A program made the translations under genes and the position numbers. This document shows positions 955-61,433 of a DNA stretch of 64,000 bases, piece after piece. Positions within the stretch are counted from its first letter, which is position 1. The number at the start of each line of letters is the position of its first letter. Below the pieces are notes generated by a model. That model ran no database searches. It saw only the letters and a list, made by a program, of their open reading frames with translations, and was not told where the DNA came from. The DNA comes from Isoetes taiwanensis (taxonomy: Eukaryota > Streptophyta > Lycopodiopsida > Isoetales > Isoetaceae): contig JAJEKV010000003.1 in the NCBI GenBank assembly GCA_021234155.1, positions 24,834,874 through 24,898,873 of the forward strand. The letters run 5' to 3'.

Positions 955-3900
955 GAGGAAGAGACCATCAGGATTGCTCACCAAGGTACGTAGTATGTCT
1001 GTTGTTCTTCAGCAAATAGATTTGATTTGTTTTGTAGAAACTTGGGAGCATGAGCAGTATGATACTCCCGATATAGTTGGGTTTCATAAAATTTCATCAG
1101 TTTGGAATGCAATAGGAGATACAAGCTATAGAGGCAATGGAGGAATAGTCTGTTATGCTAGGGAGGAGATTTCTCACAGAATCAGAGAGATTAAAATGAA
1201 CTCCCAACAGTACTTGTGGATAGAGATTGTGGGCCAGAAACCAGTATACATTGCCAGTTGCTATTATGCACCGATTCACAAAAAAGCATATGATAATAGA
1301 GATGCTGACCGGACAGATCCGTTATTCCAACTAGAACAGGACATCCTTCAATTTTCAGAAAAGGGAGAGGTAATAGTGATGGGAGATTTCAATGGCAGGA
1401 CATCTAACAGGCAAGCGGCAGTTCTAAAACAAGAAGGCGATCCACTTTGGATGGATGAAATGGACGAAGAAGATAATAAGATTGCTGGCTGGCTCAGAAG
1501 ATAAAGCTTATACAACACAAATGGGCAAATATTTGCTGGACATGTGCAGCGGTTTAGAGCTGAGAATTCTGAATGGGCTGGACAGATTCCCGGGATCAAG
1601 AAAATGTACTTGCAGGGGTAAAAGTGTAGTTGATTATGTTATCTGTGGGGAAGATACAGTTAGAAGAATAAAATCCTTGCATGTTTGGGATCAACAACCC
1701 GAATCTGACCATGTACCCGTGTCATTTCATCTGACTATGGATATATGTCCAGGGAAAAATCAGCAAGACCGCAAGTATAGTATTAGATTAGACCGCAAAA
1801 GATCAAGTAAATACAAGGAGATTTGCGAGTCAAGATTATATGAATTGAGAGATGTGCAGAATGTATCAGAACTAGATAGTCTTATCCAGAACATCTTATT
1901 AGACTCAGCTAAGAAAGTCTTTGCTCATGGGAGGAAAGCGAAAGGAATGCCCTGTAATAGTTGGTTTGACAAAGAATGTAAGGACAAACGAAAGCAATAT
2001 TTGATGGCATGTGAGGAGAATAGGAAGCATGAAAAGAAAACCTATGTTGCCTTAATCAGAAGGAAAAAGAGGGAATTCCTCAGGTGTAGACAAGAACAGC
2101 ACGCTATAGATCTGATCAGGGAGCCCAAAGCATTTTGGAATAGATTGAAAAAGAAATCACCAGAGAACTTTGAGATTGGAGCAATGGAATTATTCCGCCA
2201 TGTGCAGAAGCTGTATCAGCAGGACGATATAGAAGCAACAATACGAATGGAGCAGCCAACACTTGTGCAGTTCATCACTGAGGAGGATGTGATAAAAGGA
2301 CTAAGTAAACTCTCTAATGGCAAAGCAACACAAATGATTTGGTGGCAGAAATGTTGAAATGGGCAGGGGATGGGTTCATAATGCCTATCACACAGGTGTT
2401 AAATGCTGCAATAAGGGATGGTTTTCCCGAAACATGGCAAGTAAACCGGGTTGTCCCCATACACAAAGGAGGAGACAAGACAGACATCAACAATTACAGG
2501 ACGATTCTGGTTGGTAGTATTTTTTCTAAACTTTTTGCATCTATCTTAGAATCCAAGTTAAATGAATGGACGGAGAAGAAGGATTTGCAGGCTAAGGGAC
2601 AGGCTGGTTTCAGACCTAAGAGGTCTACAATAGATCATTTGGTGCACTCAGAGCCATTATGGATGCAGTCAAAGGTAAGAAAAAACCTTTATACTTGATC
2701 TTTGTAGATTTTAGTAAAGCTTTTGACTTGGTGCCTAGGGAGCACTTGTGGGAAAGAATGAAACAACTAAACATCCCAGTTGAATATCGTGATGCAACAA
2801 AAAGAATATATGAGAAGGTAATTGTGGAGCTGTCTTTTCCTCTTAATACTGAATGTAATACTCAAGCTATGAGTAATGTAGGGGTGAAGCAGGGTTGTCC
2901 ACTATCCTCCACGTTATTCGGTCTCTTTATAGATGGACTGGAGAGGTGTATTCTAGACAATGGAGGCACAGGAGTGAATATAGCTGGATATATCCTTGCT
3001 CTTCTTTTATACGCAGATGATGTTGTACTTTGTTCAAAGGAAAAAGCAGGGATCCAGAGACACCTTAAAGTGCTGGAAGACTTTTGTGATGCAACAGGCA
3101 TGAGGGTGAATATGTCCAAAACCAAGATCATGACAGTTGGGTCTCGGCGGAATTATAGGGGAGAGCTAATAGCATCCACGGATAGCTATAAATATCTTGG
3201 GCTCATAATAGATAAGACTTTTAGATGGAACAAATGTATTGAGCAGCGAACAAATGGAGGTTTGAAGGCATTGTATGCCATGCAACGAAGTTGTGGGAAG
3301 GCCTTTGTTCAGAATTTGAATATGAAGAGAATGCTCTATAAAGTATTGGTCCAATCAGTTGTTCTATACGGCTGCGAAGTCTGGGGGCCAGGTCTGCCTA
3401 ATTGCCTATGGGAACAAATAGAGAAGATACAGAAACGGTTTTTGTGTACGGAATTAGGTGTGAAGACTCAAACCCCGTACCATATGATGCTTGCTGAGTG
3501 TGGAATGATCCCTCTAGAAGGTGAAGCGCTCGTTCAAACCCTCATTTATTTGAAAGAGACGCAGGAATTAGACGAAGATAGGCTGCCCCACTTGGCTATG
3601 CTTGAAAGTAAAGAAAGAGGCTGGTATAAAAATATAGCAGGATGGCTTACAAAATGGGGTATGAAACTAGAGGAGTGTCCTAGAACAGAAATCCGAGCAT
3701 GGGTAATACAGGGACTTCAATTGGCAATCTGGAAAGACCCAAAAACAAAAATGGCAGAATATCGTTTAGGCATGAATCCGAGACTCCAAAAGGCCAATTA
3801 TGTGGATAGTGATATGTCTTTGGCCAAACGCAGGGCAATAGCACGCCTGAGATTAAGCTCTCATCGATTGCACATAGAAGAGGGGAGATGGAAAAAAATT

Positions 3901-4197
3901 CCCAGGGCATATAGAACATGCATAGAAGATGAATCACATGCGCTTTTACGATGCCCAGTGTATGAAGGTTTGCGTAAGAGGTATGGGATTGAAGGGGTGG
4001 ATACCCTAGATATTTTGTTTCATATGTCACCTTCGACCTTGGGTAATTTTATCCTAGATATGCTTGAGATGAGAAGACTGCATATAGCTAGCATAGATTC
4101 ATTATTGCAAAGTAATGACAGAGAGAGTGAGCTAGGTGAATGTAGCGATTGTGCTTCTATCTGTGGAAGCATATCGGAAAGCTGGTTTGATGTTTAA
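947..4197 (+). pseudogene. LINE ORF2: AP-type endonuclease and reverse transcriptase, frameshifted
   Basis: The protein is spread over four overlapping frames (947-1504, 1455-2357, 2339-2698, 2659-4197), so at least three indels break it. Endonuclease motifs are visible: FVETWE near 1036, GDFNGRTSNRQ near 1381, and SDHVPV near 1704. Reverse transcriptase motifs follow: NRVVPIHKGGDKTDINNYR near 2440, QAGFRPKRSTIDHL near 2600, FVDFSKAFDLVPREHLW near 2701, GVKQGCPLSSTLFGLF near 2881, and the catalytic YADD at about 3010. The C-terminal part (3300-4197) has the long helical tail of LINE ORF2 and a weak Cys/His patch (CIEDESHALLRCPVY). The first N-terminal endonuclease strand is poorly conserved, so the true start is uncertain. 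Confidence 0.88.
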
Positions 4198-15476: not shown

Positions 15477-18400
15477 ATGGACACCCAGGACCCCATTCTC
15501 GACGACGAGCTTTCTTTCCAGACACCGTCGGAACGCCAACAATACAGACGATACAGGTAAAGAATCTTCACGAGTCCCGGTAAATTTTAGTTATGTTTCC
15601 CTAAACCCTAAAGCTTAAACCCCATAACTTCATGACATCCATGTGAATGGCTTTCCTATAAACATCATTCGAAACAGACATGCATGCTGACCATGAAGGA
15701 AGTTAGACACTGAAGACCTACAAACAGCATAACGCTATGGGACAAATGCAATACTGGGAACTGTATGAACATGAATCTCATAGGGTCCCTGTTTGAAAAC
15801 TGTTTGAAAATAGCTGCAAAGAACAGAAGCTGTAGTTCAAGTATTAAGCAGAGGCAGAAGAGTGCGATAAATAGAACGCAATAATGAGCAAGAAAACAGT
15901 CAAATGCATGCTGCTTCATTCATGATGCCAATGGCGAGGTCTTTTTAGCTCAAACTACTGAGTCTAAGGGTGTAATACACAGTTTGCTCCTCAGTGAATT
16001 GATACCTCATGTTTCTTCTGAGAGATCTGTGAGGAACAAAGTGATGAGACAAACAACTGGAAATCCTCAAGTGTAACAAATGATCTTTTATGTAGTATTA
16101 GATATGTGAGACGTTTCACAATTGGCATTTTATGTTGTCTATTTGGATATGTATGTTCTATAAAGATTTGTAACCTTAGAAATGTTTCTGGTTCCCAACA
16201 TTGTTTTCTTAATTGCAAAACAGAAAGCGGCACTTAATTTCTGATTCACTCCTAGCAAAAGATACAAAGAGTGCATTTATTACTGAAGAGAGTCTCGTGC
16301 AAGAAGAAAGTCCTAATGCAGGGATTGATCAGAAAGATTATCCTTTGCATCTGAGCCCAGGCTGGAGTTCAGAGGTTGATTATAAAACAAGTTTAGCGAA
16401 ACCAGGTCTGACACCATCCAAACAGAGGTTCGCACATGGAACTGCAGACACACCACCCAGGTCACAAAGTTTGGCAGTGAAAGCTGTGAAAGAGGTTATT
16501 TTTTAAAAGCTCTTGATTTTACTAACCCCTTAATAGTCATTTGATCCTAAACATAAGTTTCTTGCTGCCTGCAGGAGCAGGATGAATTTACTGATAGTGC
16601 AGAGCTATCCTTTGAACGTTTTGGGTTGACCTGGGATTCAGCAGTGCATGGTAAGAGAAAACAAATGCAATGATGCTCGTTTGCATCAGTTTTTAGTTAC
16701 TTTAGGAAATTAGGCAAACAAATGGCAACTGTCCTGATGACAGATTTGATGGTTTGTAGGGTTTGTGTCTCCATCAGAGCTTATACAGCAATTTGAAGCT
16801 ATATGTCGGGATCTTGCAGAGATGGTCAGGTCGGTTATCTTTATGCGATTTTATTTAATGTTCGTGTATGTATGTATGTTTTTTTTGTTTTTCTTAGAAT
16901 AATTCCTGTTTCAAATGAAGGGACGAGGCAACAGATTGTCATCGCATCACAGAAGATAGGATCATGAGGCAGAAATCCCAAATTCTTTATTCAGAAGCGG
17001 CATCTTGGTGTCTTCTGTGGCATTTGTATGGCAAAGGTGCAATAGTCAATCTATTCTATCTCACTGGTTTTGTTTAGCGAAATACCCCTTGTAGTAACTA
17101 TCAATGCTTACACTAATCTTATTTCTTGCTTTGCTTTGAACGCATCTTGTTGTCTTCTGTGGCATTTGTATGGCAAAGGTGCAATAGTCATTCTATTTTA
17201 TCTCACTGTTTTTGTTTAACGAAATACCCCTTGTAGTAACTATCAATGCTTACACTAATCTTATTTCTTGCTTTGCTTTGAACGTGTTTGGTAGATGGTC
17301 ATTTGAGGTGTACAAAACACCTATAAAGGTCTTTGCTGGTCTAAGAGTCAATTGCTGGAACAGATCACTTTTTTATGGAATGATCAAGTAAAGCTACATG
17401 CATAGAGACGAGAAACATATTTATCGTCATTGGTGGAAGACTGCTTGGGTCTATAAGACCAATACAAGTTTGATCAGCAAACAAGTAGGGGCAAATGGTA
17501 TAAGCAATAAAAAAATAAAATAAACTCAAAATACTCTTTAGCAGCTGGAACAAAGTATAAGATTATATTCGTTGGGTCTAGTTATCTTTGCGTAAACTGC
17601 CAAGAAGCGAGAACATATAGTTTCTTAGAAGACCTAACTTGTCCTAATAAAAATCTATCTTAGCAGGTATGTTGTAAAAGTATTTATGATACAGTGTGTT
17701 GAATAGTTGCGTAGTCCAATTTAGTTTTGAATAATTTTCATAAATATTGAATGGTTTATAACATAAGGATCAGAATTTATAAAGATGAAAATGGACATGC
17801 TTACAGGCAGTGAGGAAATGGATTCTGAGGATGCATTTATGGTACGAGGTTTGTAATAATACATCCTTTTTTCATTAGTCAGATGAAAAACTTTTAGCCT
17901 CTATTGCAGTCTCCAGCTACATCATTTCAACAAGCATACAAGTTCATCAAGGCAGATCAGAATGCACAATTATGTTTGCGCATAGTTCACTGGCTTGAAG
18001 AGTTGTCTTCAAAAGAACTTGAGTTGGAGAAAAAGGTATTTAATTTTATACTTTTTGTTGATTATTCTATATTTTGTCAGTCATGTAGTCAAAAGAATGT
18101 GCAGCTTAGTTTGTAACTTTTAGGAGACATAGACTTTAGGAAAATATGACATGGCGTCCACAATCAGTTAACAAAACGTCCGCCACCAAAAAGCACATTA
18201 CATGAAAGTAGGTCATGACTATAAGTAGTCATATGAGCTGACGTGGCATCATGCCACGTCACATTAGGGTTACATTAGGGTTTCCTTCTTCTAACACCCC
18301 TTCTGAATACTGTAACACATGAATGTAACAGCGGAACATCATATCAAGGGTTGACTTGTAACTTTTGCATGCCCAGCAGAAACTTCATCTGTTTAAGCCC

Positions 18401-21400
18401 TGAGCCTGTAAGTGGTTTAGTCATCCCATCAGCTAGTTGACTTGAAGTTATACAGTATTCCACATCCAAAGTAGACTGCTGCATTTGTTCCCTGACAAAG
18501 CACAGCTCAGTATCATGATGTTTAGTGGGATGATGGTACTGTTCATCCTTGAGAAGATCTATGGCTCCAGAATTATCCACTAACAGCTTAGCCTTTGAAA
18601 TGGGAACTTTCAACTCTTGAAATAATTGTAATAACCACATCATTTCCTGCGTTCCTGTAACCAAGGCTTTTATCTCAGCTTCTGTGGTGCTAAGACTTAC
18701 TGAAGTCTGCTTTTTAGATCCCCAAGTAATTGGACTAGCTCCAAGCATAGAGATGTATCCAGTATGTGACCGTCTGTAATCAAAATCGGTTCCAGCATGA
18801 TCAGCATCCGTGTAAAACAGTAGATCCATATTGTCCTGTTTTCTATACACTAGACCTTCAGTCATAGTAGCTTTAAGATAAGCAAGTATTCGTTTTGCAG
18901 CTCGCCAATGATTTTGCTTGGGGGATTGCATGAACCTGCTTACTTGACTAACAGCAAAAGTAATGTCTGGCCTGGTAATATTGAGGTAGATCAAAGATCC
19001 AACAAGCTGTCTGAAGAGCGTAACATCACAAGAAGGTTCCTGAGAATTCAAAGTAAGTTTATTCCCCTGCTCATATGGACTGGAAGCATCTTTGGTATCT
19101 TCCATGTGAAACCGCAGTAATAAATCCTTGATGTATTTCGTTTGAGTGAGGTGAAGATATGTAGAGTGCTGCCAAACTTCAATTCCTAAACAAAAATGTA
19201 AAAGACCCAAGTCTGTAAGCTCAAAGGAATTACCAAGATCAGCCTTCAACTTCAATATTAGCTCCGTAGCATCTCCTGTGATGATAACATCATCAACATA
19301 TAGAGTAAGAATACATGTCCGACCATCATGATACTTGTAATAAAGGCTAGGGTCCTTATGAGATCTCTGAAATCCTGCAGCTAACAGAAATGCATTGATT
19401 TTATGATTCCAGCACCTCGGAGCTTGCTTCAACCCATACAAACTTCGTTTGAGCTTGCAAACTAAGTGTTCTTGTCCTTGTTGAACAAAACCAGCAGGCT
19501 GTTCCATGTAAATGGTCTCCTTCAAATCCCCATTTAGGAATGCACTCTTAAAGTCCATTTGCCATATTGGCCATCCCTTGGCAGCTGCAAAAGCTAAGAC
19601 TGCACGAATAGTGTCCATCCGAGCTACAGGGGCAAAAACATCGGTATAATCATAGCCAAACTTTTGATTATAACCTTTTGCGACTAAACGCGCCTTATGC
19701 TTAGCTACAGAGCCATCTGAATTGAATTTAGTGCGAAAAACCCATTTGCTGCCAATGACATTATGGTGGGATGGACGAGAAACCAAATCCCAGGTCTGCT
19801 GCTTAAGTAACATTGAAATTTCACTTTCCATGGCAGTAATCCATTCTTTATGCTTGGCTGCTTGTTTAAATGTTTGGGGATCTTGATGCTCTTGGTATTT
19901 AGCCATCAAAGCGAAATTGCATGTAACATTCTCTGGTGGTAAGCCAGCCAATCTCCTAGATCTTCTTGGAGATACCATAGGATCTGGAATAGCAGGAATA
20001 GATGCCAAAGAATAATCAGCATCCAAAGAATTTGAGGAAAAATCGCTCTCATATAGAGGAGAGGAAACTCCCTGGCCTACAAATGGAATGCCATGGTGAT
20101 CATCTTCTGGAATTAGCAAATGTGTGGAATCATCAGCAGTGTCAACAGCAAGAGGTTGACTGTCGGATGCTGAATTCTGTTCATGAGCAGCAGACAATGA
20201 GGGTACATCAACAACATTAGCTGGTGTCACTGGTGTCAGGGGTCTTGAATTGGCATATTCAAAAAGATGATGCAGCAACTCAAGTTGAAATGAAGATATA
20301 TCAGCCTTATCTTCCTTGTATTCGGCATCCTCAACAAATTGTACACTTCTGGAAACAAAGACTTGCTTGTTTTTAGGATCAAAAAATCTCCAGCCTTTAT
20401 TGTTGAGAGAATATCCCACAAAAATACATTTAATGGCCCTGTCAGATAGTTTTCCAGCCTTTTTGAGTTTTTCCATAGGTATAGCAGCATAGGCAAGACA
20501 GCCAAAAATGCGAAGATGATCTACACGTGGTTTCTTACCATAAAATGCCTCAAAAGGTGTCATGTTTGGTAATGCCTTGGTGGGTGCCCTGTTTGCTATG
20601 TAAACTGCGGCATGAAGTGCTTCTCCCCAAAATTTCAAATTCAGATGTTTATATGTGAGCATCGACCGAACCAAATTCTGTAGAGATCGATGTTTTCGCT
20701 CAGCTACTCCATTTTGCGAGTGAGCAAAGGGCACAATCAATTGCCTATGAATGCCATTAGCTTGACAAAAAGCATCAAATTCCCCATTCACGTACTCAGT
20801 GCCATTTTCTGTCCGGAGCTCTTTAATTTTGCTGCCCATATGCTGCTGAATGAAAATAACAAAATCTTTGAAATAAGAGAATACCTGATTTTTAGTTTTC
20901 AATAGAAAGACCCAAGTGAATCTTGAAAAATCATCTACAACAATGAAAAAATATGCTGCTCCTCCATATGATATGACAGGCATATAACATAGATCAGAGT
21001 GAACAATTTCTAATGGTTTTTCTGCCCTGTCTTGTGCATGATCCGGATACGGTGCTTGAGGTTGCTTGGCAAGATGACAAGCTTCACATTCAATATACTT
21101 GGATGCTAAATTTGGCAGTCCTTCAACCATAGCCAACCGAGTCAACTCACCAATGGCTTGACCACCCATGTGAGCAAATCGTGCATGCCATAAACTCTCT
21201 GCAGTCATATCAGTAACAATGAAACTAGTGGCATATGACAGTGGCTGAGCATCCATAGTATATAATCCTGCTTTATTCAAGTGACCAGTCAAAAGAATCC
21301 CAAGTTGAGCAGGAGATAACAGTTCAAAAGGACTCTTCATGGTGATGTAAACTCTCTTATTGCCAAAAATAATGGTCATTCCTTGAAGATCAAATTGAGA

Positions 21401-24400
21401 AACAGAAAGCAAATTCGTGAGAAGAGTAGGAAGATAAGTGACATCTGGAACTTCAATAATAACACCATCATTGGACTTTAAATGAAGTTCCCCTTTGCTG
21501 AACGATTGACATGAATTACCATTGCCAACAGTAACTTGAACTGACTGATCAATCTGAGGATTAAGCAAGAGACTTTCATCTCCTATAAGATGCTTAGATG
21601 CTCCTGAATCTAGCATAAGAAATGGTGAGGGCATGCCACTATGGGTTGCAACATTGAGATTTGAAGTTCCAAGGATCAATGGAAGTTCTGGAGCATAACT
21701 AAGAAATTGCTCATCATCATGAGCAGCAGTAGTAACAGTCAAATCAAGATGAATACTCACCTCAAATGTTTTCTCAAAAACGTGCTCAATGTCAGGAATT
21801 ATTTGAGTGTCATATGGCAAAGATAGGTCCTCCAAATTACCAGTAATGGCCATACCAAGATATTCATGAGAGAATAAAGGTGACAACACTGTTGACCCAG
21901 AGAATGCATGGTGTGTTGGTGTGGGAGTGGAAGTGGAAGTAGACGTAGAAGTCCCTGTTCTTGTAGATTCTAACCACTGCTTGAACTGTGGACATCTATT
22001 TCTGAAATGCCCAAGCAAAACAGATAATATTAGATCGATCCTTAACTGGCTTATCTCCTTAACTGGCTTATCTGGATGTTTGTATCTTTCTGTTTGCTTA
22101 AGTTTAGTAGCATCTGCCACAGCTAAATTTACCTGAGCTAACTGAAGTTGAGCTTGCTGTACCTTATTAGTATCTTCCAATTCTTCTTGAACAAGCAGAT
22201 TCTGTACTTCTGTAAATGTAAATTGAACTCCCTTTTGTGAGCATGTCTTAATTGAGCCAATAATGTTTTGAAATCTGTCCCCCACACCTCTGAAGATCAA
22301 GATTATCAGATCTTGTTCATCAATCCTTCCTCCTGCTCCAATGAGTTGTTGCTTCAGGGATTTGAGTTTAGACAAGTAGGCTTGCACATTGTCACATGTT
22401 GCCAGCTTCAACTGCTCCATTTCCTGCTTGATTAGGGACTGTTTTGCAAGACCAGTGACTACACATGAAGATTTGAGATATTTCCAAGCTTCCATAAAAG
22501 TTTTGCACTCCTTGAGTTGCAATCTAATCTCAGAATCAACCAGAGATTTCAAATGATCCAAAGCTTCTTCATCTTCATCAGGATTTGTATCTGGATCCCA
22601 TCCTGGCTTCAAGACCTTCTTTAACTTGAGGAGACCTAGATAAATCTCAAAAAATTCACTCCAGGAGACGTAATTGGAACCATCCAGTATTGGATTCTGA
22701 GTGATTTTCCATGGATCAGGTCCTCCCATGGCTTTGAGACAAGAAATACTAAATCTGACTGTGATTTAAGAAGAAACTGTAACAAGTCTGTCACCAGCTT
22801 GCACCAACAAAAAACTAGCCAAATCTTGCTGAAAAACTCGCCAGATCCAATCAAGATTGACGTCAATAGGAAGCTAAGGGCATTCTGCTCCAGATCCTAA
22901 AAGCACTCAGCAAAATTCGTAGTGGCAAGCAAGAATTTCTCCGACCCGCCTCTCAACATATCTTCCGTAAACATGGCTCTGATACCATTTTAGGAGACAT
23001 AGACTTTAGGAAAATATGACATGGCGTCCACAATCAGTTAACAAAACGTCCGCCACCAAAAAGCACATTACATGAAAGTAGGTCATGACTATAAGTAGTC
23101 ATATGAGCTGACGTGGCATCATGCCACGTCACATTAGGGTTACATTAGGGTTTCCTTCTTCTAACAGTAACTAATATGTTTGTCCACTTTTGAACATAAG
23201 CGCAAGGGCTGGTACGCAGGATCATATATTCATGGTCAAGGGGTATGGCACCAGACTCAGCATGCAATCAGGAAAAAGATTGGGCAAGCAACACTAGTTC
23301 ATCATCTTGATCCAGATGCCCCTACTCGTGAAAATGCACGAATACATCCAGAAGATCAGGTTAGGATGTGTACCCATGCATATTCATTAAAAGGTTTACC
23401 TTATATAATTACCATTTCTTACAAGCAGAAGTTGGAAGAGAACCTTTTAGAGGATGTATGGAAACTTATTCGTGCTGGCCGGGTTAGGGAGGCTCAAGAG
23501 TTGTGTCGTGTTGCTGGCCAGGTAAGATAATGAAAGACTTGTCCAGCTATACATTATGCATGTTAACTAAATTTGTGTGGCTTAGGCATGGAGAGCTGCA
23601 AGTCTTGGTGGGTGTGCGGTGATGGGCTGTGCTCCATCTGTGGAGATGTGGCGGAGTCATGCAATGGATCGTGCCTTGCAGGCAGTTGAGCTTGAGAGTG
23701 GATTTGCTCACCAACGACGCCTTTGGAAATGGGCTTGCTTTTGTGCTTCTGAGGTACACCAAATCATGTCACCACTCATGCCCTTGAGGTTGTTGATTAT
23801 GAAAAGATATTCAAGCTTCATATAAGAACGAATGCAAAGAAGATCCAGAAATACAGCCAAGTCTACAACATATAGGAGCATTCTTGTAGTTGAAAGTGCT
23901 AGTCAAACCAAATAAGAATGAAACAACTAAAACTTAGTGATAGTCTGTATCCTGAGTTCATTAACGCACGAAAAAACGCTGTGATTTTTTATACATGCAT
24001 ATGGTCCCCTTTCGTCTGTTGCCATTTTCTCAGTGCCCCTAGCCCGTCCTTTTCTTATTACTGGTTAATGGTGCTGGATCAAGTACGAAAGGACATAGCC
24101 TTGAGATCAGTTCTTTAATCCACCTATAACATAGACCAATAGACCAATAATAATGCTTTGAGGATATAGGGCTTGCTGTTGTATTCACCATTTTGATGGG
24201 GATTGATCACATGACAAGAATAATTTATATGAATATCTATAAAATCTTCTACCTCTTCTGTTAATATACTAGCAATAACTGAACATATAGACATTTGGAT
24301 GCCAAAGATACTAGGTTGATCTTTCCATTTGCGACAACAATTTTTTTCGCCTAAAAGCTAGGCTTATGCATGCATGAACCTTGAATATATGCATTCTTTA

Positions 24401-27400
24401 TCAGCTTGAGATTGTGGCTAGTCGTGCAGTTAGACCTAAGGTTGAGTGCTCTTAAGAGGATTGAGAATGTGTCATATGGATATAATTGAGTCGGAGGAGC
24501 GTTTCATTTTCACATGCCCAGCATTCTGGGGAAGATTCCATTGCCTCTTTGAGGAACCTACCTACCTCCCAAAATTCATTAGATTTGAGGACCAGAAATG
24601 TATAGCACTATTCCTCTATCGAATGACTGATCTGGGGAGAGAAATGATCCTACACAAAGGCAGATCACTCTCTTTTTCATTGAATGAGCTAACAGCAACA
24701 AATGGAGGTCATATTTTCTACCTGGGCCATCTAGCTCTACCCAAAAGGGGTATCCCGAGAAAATTAAAGCGAGCAACAAAGAAGAGACATAAACAGTTCT
24801 TTATAAGAGAAAACCGACATCACCTCATTCTTTTTCATTGTTCATAGTGTACTCGCATATACTATGAGAGCGAGAGCAATGAGGAAGAGAGAGAGCGTGA
24901 GGAGATTCGTATTGCTGAGAGCAGTGTTGAGAGCAAATTTTGGTGCAAGCAGGCAAAGATTACGTAACATTATGCTATGCAGCTGAAGTCAGATTTACCT
25001 TGAGGAAAGGTAAATATCAGTTCAATCTGTTGCAGAGGAGTTAGATCCCTGTATTTGACTGTAAAATGTGCCGGATCTTGCACTTTGAGTGAATCTTTCC
25101 AATTTTAATTGGATCCTGTAATTTGGGTTGGATTTGGGCCGCATATCTGTCATTTGGATTGGATCTGTGTTGATTTCTCTAATTAAATTGGATATCTATA
25201 ATTTCAAGAAAGATGGCAGTATTTTATGATCCATGGAAGTTGACTCCCAATCCGATGCGTGATGGCTCCTGCAGGTTATTCTCAAGCCAGGATGGTCCGC
25301 CACAACTGATGCCAATCCTGCTCTTGTTGATGAGCAGGCTCTAGATCACTGTTGGCATTATTGTTCCTGATATAAGGCACCAGCTCTCTGGATTTGCACC
25401 ACTCTGCCTATTACATCATAAGAGGACCTTATCTTTTCAGGCCTAACAGCAACTTATGAGGTTTTGTGACCAGATGGACGGCTCCCCAAAGAAAAGGAAA
25501 CTTCATGATAGCAACAACTAAGAAAGTAGCAGCGAAAAGAAGCAAAAGAAGAGAAACAAGATAGGGTTTAAAATGGGCCAAATGCTAATGTTATTCCTTG
25601 GAACATCAAGGATGGTGACTGGATCAGCTTCCTTTGCCTTAGCATTTAACTTTTAGTATCTTGGAGGCTTTCACCCGCCTTTTCGTTTCTTTTTGTTGTG
25701 TCTCGAGATTTTGATAGACTAGCAATAGGTTTGAAAACTACAATGATATGAAAGGAATAAGCGACTAATCCAGTTTTGTAATGTCAGAAACTGGCTGAGA
25801 GTGGTGGTGGAAGGTATGAAACAGCTATTTTTGCTGCACAGGCTGCAAATCTGAAATGCATCTTGCCAGTTTGTAATGATTGGGAGGTAATGTGAGATGC
25901 TATTACTATTGTATCATTGCTTTTGTTTAGTTTATCAGTAGTATTTCCTTTCTTGATATATGTAAGTGAAATTCTGTACGACACCTTATAGTCAGCTTGT
26001 TGGGCCATTGTACGCTCGTGGTTGGATGTTCAAGTGGAGATGGAACTTGGTCATATTCAGGCCAATCAGAATGAATCTGCAGTTGATATGAGCATTGAAG
26101 CTAATTTGGGACCTGAGGCTTGGCCACAACCTGTTGTTGATCAACAGCCTCGTGATCTGTTGGGAGTATTTCAGAAACTTACTTCAAGGTTTATTGCTGT
26201 TTATTTTGTCATTTATGTGATATCAACAAGATATACCATCTTATTGAGTTCAACCCTGTCATAGCGACCTAGTACATGATAATGTCCGTAGAAGCTGTAA
26301 GGAGCAACATCGGTTGGTTCAGGTATATATTCAATATTTGGGTGACAGCGCTCTGCTTCTGCACCATAATATCCCTTTTAAGTATTTTGTATACCCTTTG
26401 GTTTTATAAACATGTGTGTATTGGCAGATGGATCTTGCACTTGGAAATATTCCTCATTTGCTCGACTTGCTAAAGTCCTGGGTGTTGCCGTCTCAAGATG
26501 GTGGAAATGTGGGCAGGTGCAATAACTGGATCTCCTTGATTTTTCTTCTTACTTAGAAGCCTTTTGCTTTTTATAATAAACTCCATATACCCTTCTCTTG
26601 CTTGAGCCTTTATAAATTCCTCTCAGTACCTTCTTCTCTTGATGCCTAAACAACTTTCTGTTTTTTGCAATCTTCTTTCCAAACAACAATCATTTATAGT
26701 ACCTTAATACAAAGTATGTTCATGTTAAAAGTGACATGGATACAGTGATTTTAAATGCAGGCTTCTTCACATAAGAATGGATTCCCTTCTCTTTTATATC
26801 TAATATGCTTTGGATAATTTTATAGTAATAAAAACTTCCACAATTTGAAACAAAGGGATGCGATGTCTGTTGAAAGGCCGCCTTCAAGGTTGCCCAAAAC
26901 TGGCCTGAATAGATGCAGACCTTTAAATTTAGGAACTGGTTGATGAAGAGATGTGGAGAAATGCACGTAAGGGTACATGCATAGTGTATTCTTTGGAAGT
27001 ACTGTATTTTAACTTGTCACGCTTGTTGTGTCTTTAGGCCAGGTGGACATCCGCAAATGATACGATTTTCTGCACACCTAGTTCTGCTTCTGAGGTCCAC
27101 TTTACCAGAAGATTTGAAGCAGCAGTTTAAAGAGAAGCTTTTTCTTATTGGCGACCTTGTGCTGAACACGTATTAGCATTCTCTTTTTATCAAACATCAG
27201 ACGAATTAATTTGGACAATTGATATGTAGAAATGAAATGTTGCTACTTAAAATTACAGGTATGCAATTTATCTTTTTACTTGGGGAAAGGAAGAGCTTGT
27301 TGGAGCTTATGCCTCACAGCTTGCACCACATCTGTGCATTGAACTCTTTGTGCACATGATGGATCTTCGACAAAATGATAGGTACAAGAACTAAAAAACT

Positions 27401-30400
27401 TGTGAGGCTTTTCCTCGAGGCCATTTTAATATGTTTTTATTTATACAGCGACTTAGTGAAGCGCAAAGTTTTTTATGCTGCTATGGAGTATCTTCCCTAT
27501 TTGTCTGAGGATTCTTCAGTTGGTTGCGTATCTAAAATTTTTGACAGGTATAGTAAATTTTTGTTTTCCTTGTTTGTTCTTGCATGCCCAGTTATACCTG
27601 GATTAAGAACAATGTCTGTGTATGTGCATTTCATCTGCTTTGTATATTCATGGGCAGATTTCTAGATCAGTCCCGTGAGGTCAAGCGTGCAATAAAAACT
27701 GTGAAGGATGAAGAACAAGCTGATTATCAACAACTGGCTTTGCAAAAGGCTAAGGCTGTTCAGTGGCTTTGTTTTACTCCACCTGCATCAATACCCAATG
27801 CAGATAGGCTAAAAGCGGAGTTACTTGCCCGTGCATTGAAGCATAGGTATATATATCCTCTCTGCGATGTACATTAATATACAGGTCATAGCTTCTGGAG
27901 CTTATTCATTGCTTCTGTGATTCAGCAATACCTTGTTCCGCGAGTTCTGTTTGGCATCACTATGGAGGAGCACAACGGTTCCTGTTGGTGCTCATGTATT
28001 GCTTGGCCATCTCGCAGAGCCTTTAAAACAAGAGTCTGAAGCCGTATTTGCACTTGATCAAGAGGGTTTGCAAGGAAGCTTCCAAGAGTTTGAGGACTGG
28101 GTATACATTCTACTGTTTCTCACTTTGAAAAATTTACCAGCTTGTGCAGAATTTGCGGTCTAACTGTGCTATGGAATATGTCAATGCTTGCATCCTTCTG
28201 CATAACTTTGATAACAGTCAACAAAGATTTGTCCATGATATGTGAAAGCTCTGCAGCTTGTTTGCCTGATAGGGTTGTGCTTAAAACACAAGATCTAATC
28301 ATATTACACAGGACTGGCAGTAGGAATCCATGAGGGATAGGATCCAATATTTTAGATAGCAAGTTTGAGGCCATGAAAAACGTCAGTTGCCCCTGTCAGA
28401 CATGGTGACAATATTGTGATAGTAGTGTGTAAAAAGACTTCTTACTGGATGATGGTTCTGCATTGCATCTTTCCGACGATGTTAATTTTCTCTGAGATGT
28501 TCTTGGTTTGAAATTCTCTTTCTAATATGGATACTGTGTCTACAGAGGGAGTTCTTTGCTTGTGATGCACTCTACCGTAACTGGTTAAAGAGTGAGGAAA
28601 TTTCGTCTGTTGAGGAGGGGGTAAAAGCAGTATCAGCTGCCCAACAAGCTCTCGAGGCAACCCTTATGTTGTTGAATCGTATGTATACTTGTGAAATCAT
28701 GCTTTCATATGCATTTATGCTGTTGGGAGAAAAAATACCTGAGCATTATTTCTGATACTCTCCTTCGCTCTTACTGCAAATAATCCATTAGGAAACAAGG
28801 GCATGTGGTTGGCATTGGACGCATCAAATGACCACCAGGATGATTCAGTTGAATGGCTGGAGATGAAGGTTACTGCTGTGGTACTATCAGCTGATGCATG
28901 CTTTTTGCCACCAGATGCAACTATATGTACTGCATTAACTGGTGCCTTCTACACTTGTGTGGAAGAAGTAATCACTAATCAAAGACAGCTATCTGTGAGT
29001 TCTTAATTTTGACCTGAGTTGCCCTTGTAGTTCAATTACATTCTCTCTCTTTCTTTGTTTCGTTGATATGGTATGCATACAATGCTTTGTTAGATATATG
29101 CTTGCATATTACCTTTTCACCATGATGCAAAATATACTTTGATCTTTTTTCGCTAAAGCACACCGACAGAGATAAATAAAGGCTAGCATTTGCCCTTGAT
29201 ACAATGGCAATACAAGCAAGGGGTCCATTTGTCCATCTATATGAAAGGCAGAGATGCTGCGCAGCAACTATGGTCTTTGCCTTATGTGCCTGTTAAATGT
29301 GAAGCTTTCCTATCTTGTTCATTATTAAACCAATTTGGGCTAAGGAATTTATGAATTCTTTGCTTATCTGTTTGTGCGCAATTCAATGTGTTTCATTTCT
29401 TATAAAATTTGTTTTATGATTTATGAAATTAACCACTTTTATGGGGACCTGCATTCCTTTCAGGTGAATGTAGTTATCAATACATACAATCCCAGCTTTG
29501 TGGATATATTTGTTCGTTGCTTAGCAATTGAGGGGGATGGGTTTGGATACACTGCACATGATGGTGGATTACTCAGCACTGTTGTTGTAGCTGGAATTAA
29601 AGGTAAGCTTTAGATGCAGTATTTTTATGTTATTTAAACTGGAAATCAGTTCTTTCTACAATCTGTACCAGGTGAGCTTCAGCATTTTCAAGTTGGTGTT
29701 ATGCTGGAAGTTCTGCGCCTTGACGCATGGACCATAAACAGGGATGGTGCTAGGGAACCTGCAGATTATATTGTAAGAGGCCTTTGTCGTCGTTGCTGCC
29801 TGCCAGAGCTTGTTTTGAGATGCCTGCAGGTGGGCTTTCTTTTGAACTTCTATATATGTTTGTGTTCCTTACCTCGTTAAAACCATTCACGACTGCTACA
29901 TCAGTAAAGGACAATTCTTTTGCTACTTAAATGAGCGTTTCCTGTATACATAAAAACATAAAAAGACAGTTTGGAACAGCATAATGACCACACTAAGGTG
30001 TGTTTGAACAGGATTGGCAAGAAAGCAATGGAAAAATGTTGAATGTGTATAAAACGGTTCCTAATTAGCGAGTTAGGTATAAAAATGCAAACACCATATC
30101 CTATCATGCTAACAGAAATAGGAATGCTACACATTGGAAGGGAAAGCCCTTTGCCAGTTTCTTTTGTACATAGTGAGGGTGTAAACTATGTCTACCAATA
30201 GGTTGCCTTTTATTGCACTGCAAGAATCCCAGCAAACTGGTTGGTAGCATCGCCTTGGATGATCTACCCTACAAATGCATTGGCTATCCGTGAGCTGGTT
30301 ATAGCCGAGATGATTAGCAAGCTGTGGGCAAATGCTCAAGGAAAGCTGGACTATTATAGAAAAGACATTAATCCCATGGTCATGTATGTTCCACAACAAT

Positions 30401-31219
30401 ATCTTTTGGATAGCTTATCTGTTGCATCCAGACATCAGATTTGTAGGATGAGGGTTAGCTCCCATCGCCTACACAGTGAAGATGGTTTGGAATCCAGCGG
30501 TCCAAAAGAACGTGCAAGGTTGGAGGAAGTAGAGGATGCACAGCTCTTTTGATTGCATGTCCAGCTTATGAAACCATTAGAAGACAACATGATACAAAGC
30601 AAAACACTCAACTAATGTTTATATGTTTTTACAGATGCCCACCAAAAGTAGCATCTTCAATTAGAGATTTGTGGCAAGTAAGAGAGGCTCGTTTGAGTCA
30701 TAACCTAGGCATTTAGTGTCCATATAAGTTTGTTTTGTAATTCTTTGCGTCTCCTAGATCACAAGATCTTTATAAGATTGTGAATATACTTATCTTTATA
30801 TTTAGGATAGAAATCATTCAAATAACATCATCAGCCTTCCCTTCAAGGATGTCTTTATGAAATTTGTCTCATGTTTATGGATTAAAGACTCCTTTCTTCA
30901 TCCTTCAGTTTCTTGTGAACAGTTTTTACTTCTAAAGGTACAATGGTATATGTTTTCAGATAAAGGCTTCATTGGCAAATGCTCTGGTAGAAGAGGATGA
31001 CGATTATGATGTTCTAGAGCTTGTTGCATCCAGCAGCATCGGCTTGCATTATCTCTTCAGTCAGAGGCAGCTACAGGTCTGATTACGTGTAAGTAAGAAT
31101 TTTCTCACTGAAAGCTGCTTAACTTTATTATGTTTGTGCAGGAGCTCTTACTTCTGGAAAGAGAGCAGACTATTTGTAGCATGGAAGCTAGAGAGAACGA
31201 TCTCCGAATGATGATGTGA
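15477..31219 (+). CDS. NUP107: Nucleoporin NUP107, outer-ring (Nup107-160/Y complex) scaffold, 25 exons
   Basis: The spliced ORF is 3186 nt (1061 residues), in frame at every junction with GT-AG introns. Exons: 15477-15556, 16224-16494, 16575-16650, 16760-16829, 16921-17036, 17807-17841, 17910-18035, 23201-23359, 23426-23521, 23586-23753, 25788-25886, 25992-26188, 26265-26322, 26428-26516, 27038-27169, 27259-27381, 27449-27547, 27658-27846, 27926-28100, 28546-28678, 28792-28994, 29464-29602, 29672-29829, 30960-31076, 31142-31219. Recognised by plant Nup107 blocks: SFQTPSERQQYRRYRKRH at the N-terminus, LIRAGRVREAQELCR, LQAVELESGF, RRLWKWACFCASE, QPRDLLGVFQKL, VQWLCFTPP, VGAHVLLGHLAEPLKQ, and YIVRGLCRRCCLPELVLR near the end. 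Length matches the plant family (about 1.05-1.1 kaa). The protein is an alpha-helical stack that binds Nup133 and Nup96 in the Y complex. The start at 15477 was chosen because the family begins just before the acidic SFQ...YRRYR block; an in-frame ATG at 15297 has no family-like sequence after it. Splice sites are predicted by eye. Confidence 0.93.
15603..15611 (+). promoter_or_regulatory. Telo-box in NUP107 intron 1
   Basis: AAACCCTAA lies about 47 bp after the exon 1 donor. Telo-boxes near the 5' end are common in plant housekeeping and cell-cycle genes and bind Myb-like factors. Function here is inferred from the motif and position only. Confidence 0.4.
17001..17284 (+). repeat. Tandem duplication across the exon 5 / intron 5 boundary of NUP107
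   Basis: Two 142-bp units (17001-17142 and 17143-17284) differ at about seven positions. Unit 1 contains the last 36 bp of exon 5 and its donor (GCAAAG|GTGCAA). Unit 2 repeats both the coding stretch and the donor inside intron 5. The second copy has no obvious acceptor of its own, so it is a decoy donor; the usual junction to exon 6 (17807) keeps the frame. Confidence 0.95.
18118..18296 (-). repeat. 3' LTR of the copia element
   Basis: 179 bp, identical to the copy at 22988-23166. It holds a perfect inverted repeat with 10-bp arms (GACGTGGCAT/ATGCCACGTC, one-base spacer, 18240-18260) and a second with 7-bp arms (ATGACTA/TAGTCAT) around 18214-18231. Confidence 0.97.
18297..18304 (-). other. 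Polypurine tract of the copia element
   Basis: On the minus strand, AGAAGGGG directly precedes TGTTAG, the start of the 3' LTR. It is the expected plus-strand primer site. Confidence 0.85.
18344..22729 (-). CDS. Ty1/copia gag-pol polyprotein
   Basis: 1461 residues in one frame. In order: gag with a UBN2-like domain (about 5-235; DPWKITQNPILDGSNYVSW, VLKPGW); a remnant zinc knuckle (GHFRNRC only, about 240-250); aspartic protease (FLMLDSGASKHLIGD, about 370); GAG-pre-integrase with HHCC (HARFAHMGG ... CEACHLAK, about 510-560); integrase core (DDFSRFTWVF, RTENGTEY about 640, NGVAERKHR); a copia-type reverse transcriptase (WQMDFKSAFLNGDLKETIY, LYVDDVIITG, about 1000-1250); and RNase H (DADHAGTDFDYRRSHTGY, STTEAEIKAL, KHHDTELCFVREQ). 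Two key sites look altered: the first two knuckle cysteines are missing, and the second integrase acidic residue is Glu where family members have Asp. The frame is otherwise fully open. Confidence 0.96.
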   Translation of the reverse strand: MGGPDPWKITQNPILDGSNYVSWSEFFEIYLGLLKLKKVLKPGWDPDTNPDEDEEALDHLKSLVDSEIRLQLKECKTFMEAWKYLKSSCVVTGLAKQSLIKQEMEQLKLATCDNVQAYLSKLKSLKQQLIGAGGRIDEQDLIILIFRGVGDRFQNIIGSIKTCSQKGVQFTFTEVQNLLVQEELEDTNKVQQAQLQLAQVNLAVADATKLKQTERYKHPDKPVKEISQLRIDLILSVLLGHFRNRCPQFKQWLESTRTGTSTSTSTSTPTPTHHAFSGSTVLSPLFSHEYLGMAITGNLEDLSLPYDTQIIPDIEHVFEKTFEVSIHLDLTVTTAAHDDEQFLSYAPELPLILGTSNLNVATHSGMPSPFLMLDSGASKHLIGDESLLLNPQIDQSVQVTVGNGNSCQSFSKGELHLKSNDGVIIEVPDVTYLPTLLTNLLSVSQFDLQGMTIIFGNKRVYITMKSPFELLSPAQLGILLTGHLNKAGLYTMDAQPLSYATSFIVTDMTAESLWHARFAHMGGQAIGELTRLAMVEGLPNLASKYIECEACHLAKQPQAPYPDHAQDRAEKPLEIVHSDLCYMPVISYGGAAYFFIVVDDFSRFTWVFLLKTKNQVFSYFKDFVIFIQQHMGSKIKELRTENGTEYVNGEFDAFCQANGIHRQLIVPFAHSQNGVAERKHRSLQNLVRSMLTYKHLNLKFWGEALHAAVYIANRAPTKALPNMTPFEAFYGKKPRVDHLRIFGCLAYAAIPMEKLKKAGKLSDRAIKCIFVGYSLNNKGWRFFDPKNKQVFVSRSVQFVEDAEYKEDKADISSFQLELLHHLFEYANSRPLTPVTPANVVDVPSLSAAHEQNSASDSQPLAVDTADDSTHLLIPEDDHHGIPFVGQGVSSPLYESDFSSNSLDADYSLASIPAIPDPMVSPRRSRRLAGLPPENVTCNFALMAKYQEHQDPQTFKQAAKHKEWITAMESEISMLLKQQTWDLVSRPSHHNVIGSKWVFRTKFNSDGSVAKHKARLVAKGYNQKFGYDYTDVFAPVARMDTIRAVLAFAAAKGWPIWQMDFKSAFLNGDLKETIYMEQPAGFVQQGQEHLVCKLKRSLYGLKQAPRCWNHKINAFLLAAGFQRSHKDPSLYYKYHDGRTCILTLYVDDVIITGDATELILKLKADLGNSFELTDLGLLHFCLGIEVWQHSTYLHLTQTKYIKDLLLRFHMEDTKDASSPYEQGNKLTLNSQEPSCDVTLFRQLVGSLIYLNITRPDITFAVSQVSRFMQSPKQNHWRAAKRILAYLKATMTEGLVYRKQDNMDLLFYTDADHAGTDFDYRRSHTGYISMLGASPITWGSKKQTSVSLSTTEAEIKALVTGTQEMMWLLQLFQELKVPISKAKLLVDNSGAIDLLKDEQYHHPTKHHDTELCFVREQMQQSTLDVEYCITSSQLADGMTKPLTGSGLKQMKFLLGMQKLQVNP
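22975..22987 (-). other. Primer binding site (initiator tRNA-Met)
   Basis: On the minus strand TGGTATCAGAGCC begins at the base after the 5' LTR. TGGTATCAGAGC is the standard plant copia primer site complementary to the 3' end of initiator tRNA-Met. Confidence 0.92.
22988..23166 (-). repeat. 5' LTR of the copia element (promoter LTR)
   Basis: 179 bp, identical to the 3' LTR. The ACGT-core palindrome lies at 23110-23130 and would sit in the U3 region. No clear TATA box was identified. Confidence 0.97.
24446..24850 (+). mobile_element. LINE ORF2 C-terminal fragment in NUP107 intron 10
   Basis: A 133-codon open frame includes MCHMDIIESEERFIFTCPAF followed by a hydrophobic helix-rich stretch. 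The CxM..E..FIFTCPAF spacing matches the Cys/His end region of LINE ORF2 seen at about 3930 (CIEDESHALLRCPVY) and in the 48.6-48.9 kb LINE. It is a 5'-truncated relic, not a host gene. Confidence 0.6.
25228..25400 (+). mobile_element. Ty1/copia gag remnant in NUP107 intron 10
   Basis: Translated on the + strand, DPWKLTPNPMRDGS then, after a deletion and frame change, VILKPGW and DEQALDH match the start of the gag in the 18-23 kb copia element (DPWKITQNPILDGS, KVLKPGW, EEALDH). A later frame gives VPDIRHQL, like VDSEIRLQL. The relic is old and in sense orientation, from a related but distinct copia. Confidence 0.7.
30241..30620 (+). mobile_element. LINE ORF2 C-terminal fragment in NUP107 intron 23
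   Basis: The open frame 30241-30552 contains CRMRVSSHRLHSEDG, which matches ARLRLSSHRLHIEEG at about 3840 of the first LINE. It continues to a further frame with CMSSL. It is a truncated relic on the gene's sense strand. Confidence 0.65.
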
Positions 31220-42434: not shown

Positions 42435-45272
42435 TTACAAAATCCTGTCTGCATATGAAGGCAGTCTTCTGAAAAAGTTGAGTGGCACAGGCGGCAATTT
42501 TTCGCGAAAGCGAGGATGGCGCAACACAAAGAGGCCTACAAGAATAGCAACCACCCTAAAAGGAGTGACATAGAGAAGAATAGCAGCAGCCAAACAGAAG
42601 ACAATAAAAACAGCTGTAGCTCTTGGATCTCTCCAGCTTAACAAAGCGCTCAATCTCTCCCCCTGTGATGCAAGATCTCCAAGAACTGTTTGTATCCGGC
42701 TTGCCACAATTCGCAGCCTATCATACCTCATTTTCACAACATCAGGGCTTCTAGAGGTGAGCACTGTGTCAAATTCCTCGTCCAACTCATCAGGATCAAC
42801 ATGTTCAGCTTGTGATATTCTAGCATCCATGTGAGGAGGTAATCTAGGGCGATATCGATAATGCCATGCCCCGATCAAAAACATGTATAAGAAGAGGGTG
42901 GGAAGAATCAACTCAGGATACCAGACAAGAATAAGGAATAAGAAGTGCACAAGCACAGTAGTGACTGGATTCTTCCACTGGCAAATATCATTGAACCATT
43001 TTGTCACAGCTATGACCCCTGACAATACTCCCATCATTCGGTAATAATTTACTTTGCTGCGCCTCATGCTCCACATGTTAGAATCAGTATCCAACATAAA
43101 TCGCACAACTTCTTCGCGCAATGGTGGTTCAGACCTGGTAAGTCTTGATGAGACAATCCCAATAGCTGCATCTCTCAACTTGTCTAGCTGTATGACCCCC
43201 AAAGGATAAAGATAGTGCATCTTTGGAAGAGGCGGCTGAAAATACACCTGCATGACATTTAAAAAAGAAGTGCAGGAAAACCTCACTGCTAGCTCAATTT
43301 CCCCCATTTTCTTCACTCCAGAACGCTGGAGAACCAGAAGAGGATATGAATGGGTGTAGACTCTATCACTTTCAAGAGTTGAAAGACGGATCCGAACCTT
43401 ACCAACATAGGTATCCCTGGCTCCAGTTGCTTTTGCTGCAAGATCATCCTTAGTATGGCAGTTATCAAACACGCCAATTGTAAGAACAGTACATGGATCA
43501 TGAACTTCCCAAGTGTATTGCTCATTCCATCGTGGAGTAAAGGAATCCATAATGGTACGAGTCCGTACCCATTTCTGGCCATACTTTGCTACGCAATATG
43601 CATCAGTAGTTCCTTTTCCATCTTTGACTTTCAGAGGTACTAGAGCTTTAGCACCTATTATACCCAATTCTAGAAGTCCCAGGGCTGGCTTCCAAAGCTG
43701 CTTTGCAGTGGGTCTCACATCACTAATGTGATGTGTTGATTCATCCATAACATGGTACCCACCATCAAAACACAGCCGAAGGTGGATCCTCCCTCTGAAA
43801 GGCTTCTCTCCACTTTTCTCAAGATTGTGCCAACGTGATAAGACATTTCTATGATCCACTCTCCTTTCTATGGTTGTGAGAGGTATTTTCACAATTCCTA
43901 GAATTTCCTCCTTGTTAGGACCAACTCTATCTTCAACTGTAAGAACAAGAAGTTCGTCAAAAGGTTCTGCCGCAACAAACATCAAATCATCATTCCAAAA
44001 AGGGCTGGGGGTCTTATTAGCTGGTGCTACTCTTGTTCTCATCTGCTGACGACCAAGTGTTGCCTTCACACTTATATCAGGAAACCTTGTCTTATCTGTT
44101 ATCACAAGGTCTTGAGCTTCTATCACATTGACTCTAAGATACCACAGCTTTGGAGACATATATACCTTTGATCGGTTATGCAAATGACCTCCTGTCTCAT
44201 AGTGCCATGATTCTGCAAAAGCTTCATCAGCCTGAGTACCCCACCATACTGCTACCATGACCTCTCCCTTTACATCACTGTCCCATTTCCTGCCATCTAA
44301 TGTGTACCACTGAGGAGCCAGGGGACTCTCTGGAGGAACACGGGTTGAGATTTCAGACAACTCAAATACAACTCTTCCCAAAAAATCATCCTTGCCTATC
44401 TTATCAGCATCATACAACAGGAGCTCCACTACAGGACCTTGAATCTTCTCTTTTCCAAATGCAAAAACCTGATTCCACACTGGGTTAGTGGTTTTCTTAC
44501 AGACTTCTGTCTTTGCAGGGCCCCCTTCCCCAACTTTGATTATAACATAAGGATCACTAGTGCCACCAGCATCTTTGGCCGCAAGACCTCTTGCCTTAAC
44601 AACTCTGACATACAAATATCGCATTTTTTCAACCAAATCATAAGTCAAGGTTTTCTCACCTGGCATAGGCCCCAATGCAGGATTTGTATTTTTGAGAGCA
44701 AACTCTGTAGCAGGAAGCACAGACGGAGGAATTATCACCTTCTTAGGTTCACCTCCAGTTACATCTTTTTTGATAATAGTCTCTCCTCCTCCACCTTTGC
44801 TTCCTTTGTCTGCACCTTTTTCTCCATCCTTGGCTTTGCCGGCACCCTCATCTGCATACCAGATCTTAAGCCGAAGTTCCCCTTTGATGCGTGAAAACAT
44901 ACCCCTTTTTTCCAGAGAATGATTTACAATGGCTTCCTCCCCTTGCTTCACAAAACTGCTGCCATGAATCTTCACTCGACCCAGAAAAGCATGTTTATCT
45001 GGGCCATCACTGTAGATTTCGATCTGTAATGTGTCCATGCCCATGCTTGAAGCGTCCACCGGAAACTCGAACTTCTCATTCCATGTTGGGTTTAAATCCT
45101 TCTTCTTAATCTGGGTCTTCCGCCTCTGCCCATCATACAGAATGACGCAGTATGGATTCGCCGAGCCGTGCCCATCCTTGGGCATCAAATTGTGAGCGCT
45201 TAGAACTTCCACATACAGTTTTCGCCCCATCTCTATTTCCCCTTCAAAACTATCTCCGCATTTATGGACCAA
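42435..45272 (-). CDS. Multiple C2 domain and transmembrane region protein (MCTP family, FTIP/QUIRKY-like)
   Basis: 945 residues, single uninterrupted ORF, as is usual for plant MCTPs (about 750-1080 aa). Four C2 domains: about 17-115 (LYVEVLSAHNLMPKDGHGSA), 218-325 (YLYVRVVKARGLAAKDAGG), 378-485 (YLRVNVIEAQDLV) and 537-650 (LELGIIGAKALVPLKVKDG). Conserved Asp pairs for calcium binding are visible in the second and fourth (KDAGGTSDPY, KDGKGTTDAY); the third has ITDKTRFPDI and is less canonical. The C-terminal PRT_C region (about 790-945) has hydrophobic segments near 785-820 and 885-918, expected to form the ER-membrane anchor. Plant MCTPs tether ER to plasma membrane at plasmodesmata and help move proteins such as FT between cells. 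Start M at 45272 is the longest; an internal Met 14 residues on, just before GRKLYVEV, is an alternative. A 5' UTR intron is possible (acceptor at about 45297, donor near 45463). Which subgroup it belongs to cannot be settled here. Confidence 0.93.
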   Translation of the reverse strand: MVHKCGDSFEGEIEMGRKLYVEVLSAHNLMPKDGHGSANPYCVILYDGQRRKTQIKKKDLNPTWNEKFEFPVDASSMGMDTLQIEIYSDGPDKHAFLGRVKIHGSSFVKQGEEAIVNHSLEKRGMFSRIKGELRLKIWYADEGAGKAKDGEKGADKGSKGGGGETIIKKDVTGGEPKKVIIPPSVLPATEFALKNTNPALGPMPGEKTLTYDLVEKMRYLYVRVVKARGLAAKDAGGTSDPYVIIKVGEGGPAKTEVCKKTTNPVWNQVFAFGKEKIQGPVVELLLYDADKIGKDDFLGRVVFELSEISTRVPPESPLAPQWYTLDGRKWDSDVKGEVMVAVWWGTQADEAFAESWHYETGGHLHNRSKVYMSPKLWYLRVNVIEAQDLVITDKTRFPDISVKATLGRQQMRTRVAPANKTPSPFWNDDLMFVAAEPFDELLVLTVEDRVGPNKEEILGIVKIPLTTIERRVDHRNVLSRWHNLEKSGEKPFRGRIHLRLCFDGGYHVMDESTHHISDVRPTAKQLWKPALGLLELGIIGAKALVPLKVKDGKGTTDAYCVAKYGQKWVRTRTIMDSFTPRWNEQYTWEVHDPCTVLTIGVFDNCHTKDDLAAKATGARDTYVGKVRIRLSTLESDRVYTHSYPLLVLQRSGVKKMGEIELAVRFSCTSFLNVMQVYFQPPLPKMHYLYPLGVIQLDKLRDAAIGIVSSRLTRSEPPLREEVVRFMLDTDSNMWSMRRSKVNYYRMMGVLSGVIAVTKWFNDICQWKNPVTTVLVHFLFLILVWYPELILPTLFLYMFLIGAWHYRYRPRLPPHMDARISQAEHVDPDELDEEFDTVLTSRSPDVVKMRYDRLRIVASRIQTVLGDLASQGERLSALLSWRDPRATAVFIVFCLAAAILLYVTPFRVVAILVGLFVLRHPRFREKLPPVPLNFFRRLPSYADRIL

Positions 45273-61418: not shown

Positions 61419-61433
61419 AACCTTTGTTTCATC
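61419..61433. repeat. Target-site duplication of LINE copy D, right
   Basis: Exact repeat of 60396-60410. Confidence 0.93.

Follow-up and report, generated by a model that had tools for sequence, protein, structure and literature searches.

In Arabidopsis, most new full-length copies of the copia retrotransposon ONSEN that reside inside genes are spliced out like introns (PMC12112155). On a 64,000-nt stretch of the quillwort Isoetes taiwanensis (assembly GCA_021234155.1, contig JAJEKV010000003.1, positions 24,834,874 to 24,898,873; in the following called the window), we characterized a copia element inserted in antisense orientation in intron 7 of NUP107. Its coordinates, its strand, the GTAAC duplications on both sides and the end of the right duplication 29 nt ahead of exon 8, as described in a first-pass annotation of this DNA, were all confirmed (Table 1). 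The insertion is ordinary and young. We consider it likely that this recent integration leaves the transcript within one 5165-nt intron, whose removal would use the donor and acceptor that were there before the insertion. The first-pass annotation was exact on the geometry of the insertion and over-read the intactness of the element, the certainty of the branch site and the uniqueness of the locus as a test.

Table 1 Features of the NUP107 insertion locus and of a related insertion. LTR, long terminal repeat; PWM, position weight matrix score; positions refer to the window unless a copy is named.
Feature	Position	Strand	Remark
NUP107 exon 7	17910..18035	+	
NUP107 intron 7	18036..23200	+	5165 nt; 111 nt before the insertion
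NUP107 exon 8	23201..23359	+	
Copia LTR retrotransposon	18118..23166	-	5049 nt; antisense to NUP107
3' LTR	18118..18296	-	179 nt; sense termini TGTTAG...CTAAAA
5' LTR	22988..23166	-	179 nt; same sequence as 3' LTR
Left target-site duplication	18113..18117	.	GTAAC
Right target-site duplication	23167..23171	.	GTAAC
Primer-binding site	22976..22987	-	TGGTATCAGAGC; adjoins 5' LTR; read directly
Polypurine tract	18297..18304	-	AGAAGGGG; adjoins 3' LTR; read directly
Open gag-pol frame	18344..22729	-	1461 amino acids; changes in the gag knuckle and at one catalytic residue of the integrase
Rebuilt branch-like CTAAT	23171..23175	+	A at -27 from exon 8
New branch-like CTAAC	23161..23165	+	from LTR end; A at -37
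New acceptor-like AG	23166..23167	+	LTR A plus duplication G; PWM 6.9, native acceptor -0.2
Acceptor-like AG at left junction	18122..18123	+	TTTTAG|G; PWM 5.5
L017 copy in a dynein heavy chain gene	L017:1808-6755 with L017:3-728 and L031:832-7273		antisense to the gene

The host gene lies on the plus strand. Our hand-built model has 25 exons from 15477 to 31219, comprising 3186 nt that encode 1061 amino acids with only the terminal stop. The 24 introns have a median length of 105 nt, the shortest being 64 nt and the longest 5165 nt. A candidate for exon 24 at 30202–30239 was discarded because it broke the reading frame. Exons 7–10 match the domain PF04121 (Nup84/Nup100) and, as the best hit among solved structures, NUP107 of PDB entry 9sob, chain L (8.8e-60), an entry presumably from a plant. 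By domain and best structure, both judged on exons 7–10 only, the predicted gene classifies as a NUP107 orthologue. The alignment to 9sob_L is gapless at the exon 7/8 junction and therefore supports the acceptor at 23200.

Joining both flanks with a single GTAAC yields the 111-nt intron and confirms the previously noted growth to the present length. The locus had also been proposed as a natural test of how a very short intron tolerates such an insertion; in this it is not special, since among the other 23 introns of NUP107 seven are longer than 350 nt, and one of these reaches 2034 nt. Separately, the end of exon 5, its donor and the start of intron 5 are contained in a 142-nt tandem duplication (window 17000–17283, 96% identical), which spans the exon 5 donor and therefore places a second donor copy inside intron 5.

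The element belongs to the Ty1/copia group. Its LTRs are direct repeats with 100% identity, bordered by the target duplications, and a primer-binding site and a polypurine tract adjoin them on the inside; the primer-binding site presumably matches initiator-Met tRNA. The Pfam domains of the long open frame follow in the order copia gag, Pol_BBD, gag_pre-integrs, rve, SH3_retrovirus and RVT_2 (gag at residues 51–185, rve at 570–667, RVT_2 at 978–1219), with the integrase ahead of the reverse transcriptase. The TG...CA ends that are usual, though not defining, for Ty1/copia are absent from this copy and its family, which have TG...AA. Short LTRs and a size of about 5 kb may hint at the Ale lineage. 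LTR ends other than TG-CA have been described, among them TG-TT, AA-CA, TG-GA, TA-CA and TG-TA (PMC5659011). The Rosaceae Ale-lineage families TGTT and AACA covered there resemble the Isoetes element in their non-TG...CA ends and many young copies; they differ in the ends themselves, and for the Isoetes element the Ale lineage is no more than a candidate.

An LTR search of the assembly gave 40 scored matches among 53 candidates. Twenty stretches were fetched, 11 with two LTRs (12 full copies including the window copy) and nine with one; seven of the 40 matches, at 79–81% identity, were left out of this sample. Ten of the 12 full copies are flanked by perfect 5-bp target duplications, the exceptions being L019 and L020, and ten have exactly the termini TGTTAG...CTAAAA in sense orientation, nine of which also have perfect duplications. 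The two deviants in their termini, L018 (ending CTGAAA) and L019 (starting TGAAAG), leave TG...AA in place in all 12. Because most of the sampled copies share these termini and have 5-bp duplications, the window element has the boundaries of its family. Target duplications also flank three single LTRs (L021, L022, L023), which look like solo LTRs; the other six have none. The 3' flank, compared over 15 nt, is identical in L014 and L020, which probably go back to one insertion that was later duplicated together with its surroundings.

A dynein heavy chain gene harbors one further copy, L017, in antisense orientation between its exons, with DHC_N2 encoded on one side and the end of DHC_N2 plus AAA_6 on the other. 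The presence of such a gene is in keeping with a plant whose sperm swim. We count the L017 insertion as support for an ordinary intronic insertion in NUP107. A family bias toward genes is not claimed: the flanks of L010, L011 and L012 resemble other copia elements by eye, and a kinase-like stretch beside L023 had no Pfam match. Each LTR of the window copy also contains TGACGTGGCATGATGCCACGTCA (sense; 18239–18261 and 23109–23131), composed of perfect 11-nt inverted arms with one base between them, which in our view resembles bZIP/ABRE-type sites. Six of the 12 full copies have the full 23-mer in both LTRs, and three others have it in one.

The first-pass annotation had derived the youth of the insertion from its identical LTRs. 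The youth stands; LTR identity as the basis for dating does not. Ages were calculated with two flowering-plant substitution rates, 1.3e-8 and 2.5e-9 per site per year. With 0 differences in 179 nt, the 95% upper bound is 0.64 million years (My) at the first rate and 3.35 My at the second, and three of the 12 full copies (window, L012 and L015) have LTR pairs without a substitution or gap. For both reasons, identity over 179 nt dates the insertion poorly. An insertion older than it appears and fixed in the species, its LTR identity owed to the shortness of the LTRs or to gene conversion, would be compatible with these two observations.

The internal sequence argues against such an age. In the 4793 alignment columns with no more than one gapped copy among the 12, the window copy has two private substitutions and a terminal branch of 0.0006; the counts in the same columns are 2 for L015, 4 each for L010 and L014, 8 for L012 and 11 to 457 for the rest. 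The window count remained 2 under a relaxed filter that required three or more of the other copies in a column (5032 columns) and was 3 when only five or seven copies were compared; it could only fall if closer copies exist outside the sample. Two substitutions in 5049 nt correspond to 0.030 My (upper bound 0.096) at 1.3e-8 and to 0.158 My (upper bound 0.499) at 2.5e-9, both being flowering-plant rates. The youth of the insertion is thus better shown by two private substitutions in 5 kb than by LTR identity, and we regard an old, fixed insertion as very unlikely. Within the 1.66-Gb assembly, 23201–23690 and 17760–18117 each match once, and no other haplotype or duplicate of the locus, with or without the element, was found. 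According to PMC8566536, low genetic diversity is expected for I. taiwanensis.

The element had further been called intact. This holds for its open frame, which reaches 1461 amino acids in the window copy alone among the 12 (1392 amino acids in L012, 910 in L015), and fails for function. One of the two private substitutions alters an acidic residue that is catalytic in the integrase. Two more private changes affect gag, a duplication of 17 nt and a deletion of 11 nt; together they keep the frame but eliminate the CCHC knuckle's first half. These two changes lie within about 80 nt of each other and may represent one complex event of reverse transcription. A private 4-nt deletion is located just before the polypurine tract. 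The motifs of protease, reverse transcriptase and RNase H are kept. As regards autonomy, the coding frame is open and the catalytic and nucleic-acid-binding motifs are incomplete, so that the element is open but probably defective. Integrase damage occurs elsewhere in the family as well, at the same residue in L019 and at another catalytic position in L012 and L016, and the motifs lost in the window copy are retained by other sampled copies. An open frame and identical short LTRs thus prove neither intactness nor a good date.

With the exons unharmed, the question becomes how intron 7 would be spliced. Before the insertion its best branch-like match was CTAAT, and, as the first-pass annotation had stated, the target duplication rebuilds this motif with its A at the same distance from exon 8. 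The designation as the likely branch site was too strong. Although CTAAT is present, CTRAY occurs between -15 and -60 in six of the other 23 NUP107 introns as compared to 4.0 in mononucleotide shuffles, and YTNAY in 21 as compared to 19.2; the motif is a flowering-plant consensus, applied here to a lycophyte. We therefore dropped CTRAY as a strong predictor, and CTAAT is no better than plausible as a branch site, a weak call within NUP107. Two further signals at this junction had been missed: the CTAAC contributed by the LTR end and the AG formed by the LTR and the duplication.

Splice sites were scored with position weights trained on the other 23 introns of NUP107, that is, on one gene. The native donor of intron 7 scores 6.8 and ranks 12th of 24, and only three of the 264 GTs in the enlarged intron, the native one included, reach its score. 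An alternative acceptor at 23206 was rejected, as it scores -3.7 and would remove two residues that align to 9sob_L. We infer use of the original acceptor because the last 29 nt of the intron are untouched, CTAAT is rebuilt, the LTR adds CTAAC upstream, and the AG ending at 23200 is the first at a usable distance from both.

Several observations weigh against this. The native acceptor is the fourth weakest of the 24, and of the 352 AGs that the enlarged intron contains, 219 equal or outscore it, the junction AG among them. The weights discriminate poorly, as seven AGs within the element outscore the junction AG. In addition, seven ONSEN insertions led to partial exonization according to PMC12112155.

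One rival to the native acceptor is the junction AG itself, which far outscores the native site and has a pyrimidine-rich context (TTTCCTTCTTCTAACAG). If it competed, some transcripts would gain 33 nt whose first codon, TAA, is in frame after codon 258, and NUP107 would stop after residue 258 of 1061, making this a hypomorphic allele. However, in the 67 nt upstream of the junction AG, YTNAN occurs only at 56 nt, with two AGs in between, and at 3 nt, which is too close. The score itself comes from 23 introns only, with weights so weak that most AGs of the enlarged intron equal or exceed the native site; an AG that predates the insertion, at position 18080 of the former intron, scores higher than the junction AG (8.0). 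We judge this outcome unlikely. Still less probable appears a two-acceptor switch, in which the LTR end and the duplication G supply the pyrimidine-rich AG 33 nt upstream, with its immediate TAA, the CTAAC of the LTR favors the old acceptor, and the balance between both sets the dose of NUP107. If this were true, any antisense family copy with a target duplication starting with G on the gene strand would carry the same two-acceptor module.

Signals inside the element could alternatively yield chimeric or truncated transcripts, through antisense splice sites or polyadenylation signals. On the gene strand the element contains two donors and 210 acceptors that score at least as high as the native sites, as well as three AATAAA motifs, and chimeric isoforms arose from an ONSEN copy inserted antisense in SOC1 (PMC12112155). 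But the opposite strand has six such donors and 233 acceptors, and five control stretches of equal length have 3–8 donors and 172–210 acceptors. Measured against these controls, splice signals are not unusually frequent on the gene strand of the element, and donors are rather scarce there. The young antisense human endogenous retroviruses (ERVs) HERV9 and HERV-K are reported to show no splicing events (PMC1794541). Such transcripts are, in our estimate, improbable, about as much as use of the junction acceptor. We also considered and rejected a cryptic acceptor at position 18331, just past the left LTR, where the gene strand reads the polypurine tract as pyrimidines; it scores just 2.2.

We therefore return to removal of the whole insertion as the favored explanation. 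The copia element would have landed antisense in the 111-nt intron, leaving the coding exons unharmed, and splicing would remove one 5165-nt intron via the old donor and the old acceptor at 23200. As its own integrase and gag are probably impaired, it may have integrated with the proteins of sister copies, or gained these changes in its last round of reverse transcription or later. For NUP107 the consequence would probably be neutral to mildly lowering, by slower transcription or splicing or by local methylation. The family boundaries, the open 25-exon frame, the gapless exon 7/8 junction and the two private substitutions all count as support for an ordinary young insertion. The junction is the one point beyond routine, with one signal rebuilt and two new ones of opposite predicted effects. 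The locus thus offers a clean, young example of an LTR element within the 3' splice region of a quillwort gene, and it makes a sharp prediction: the native exon 7/8 junction, or a form longer by 33 nt that starts with a stop codon.

Elsewhere in the window, matches to RVT_1 together with zf-RVT (below the curated cut-off) at 2659–4197 and 60587–61438 suggest non-LTR elements near both ends. An open frame of 945 amino acids at 42435–45272 has C2 domains and a plant phosphoribosyltransferase C-terminal domain and is presumably an MCTP-type protein.

A literature search, judged by titles and the openings of abstracts, found no published description of this NUP107 insertion, which does not show that it is unreported. 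The known systems share individual traits with it. Rice genes with intronic heterochromatin that depend on OsIBM2 (PMC7145194) also contain a transposable element inside an intron; for the Isoetes case, the comparison covers DNA sequence. The human ERVs (PMC1794541) are likewise antisense LTR elements tolerated in introns, but they are retroviral and mammalian, and the evidence is statistical rather than drawn from a single site. In pepper, a copia element inserted in CCS (PMC7475241) supplies splice-junction sequence and alters the transcript; in contrast to NUP107, that gene is intronless, and the evidence there comes from reverse transcription PCR. Closest is ONSEN/ATCOPIA78 (PMC12112155), also a full-length copia inside a gene, for which three intronic insertions among eight homozygous ones were removed whole by splicing and an antisense case yielded chimeric transcripts. 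The Isoetes insertion differs from it in being natural, in residing in a lycophyte, in its distance of only 29 nt from the acceptor, and in being read from DNA.

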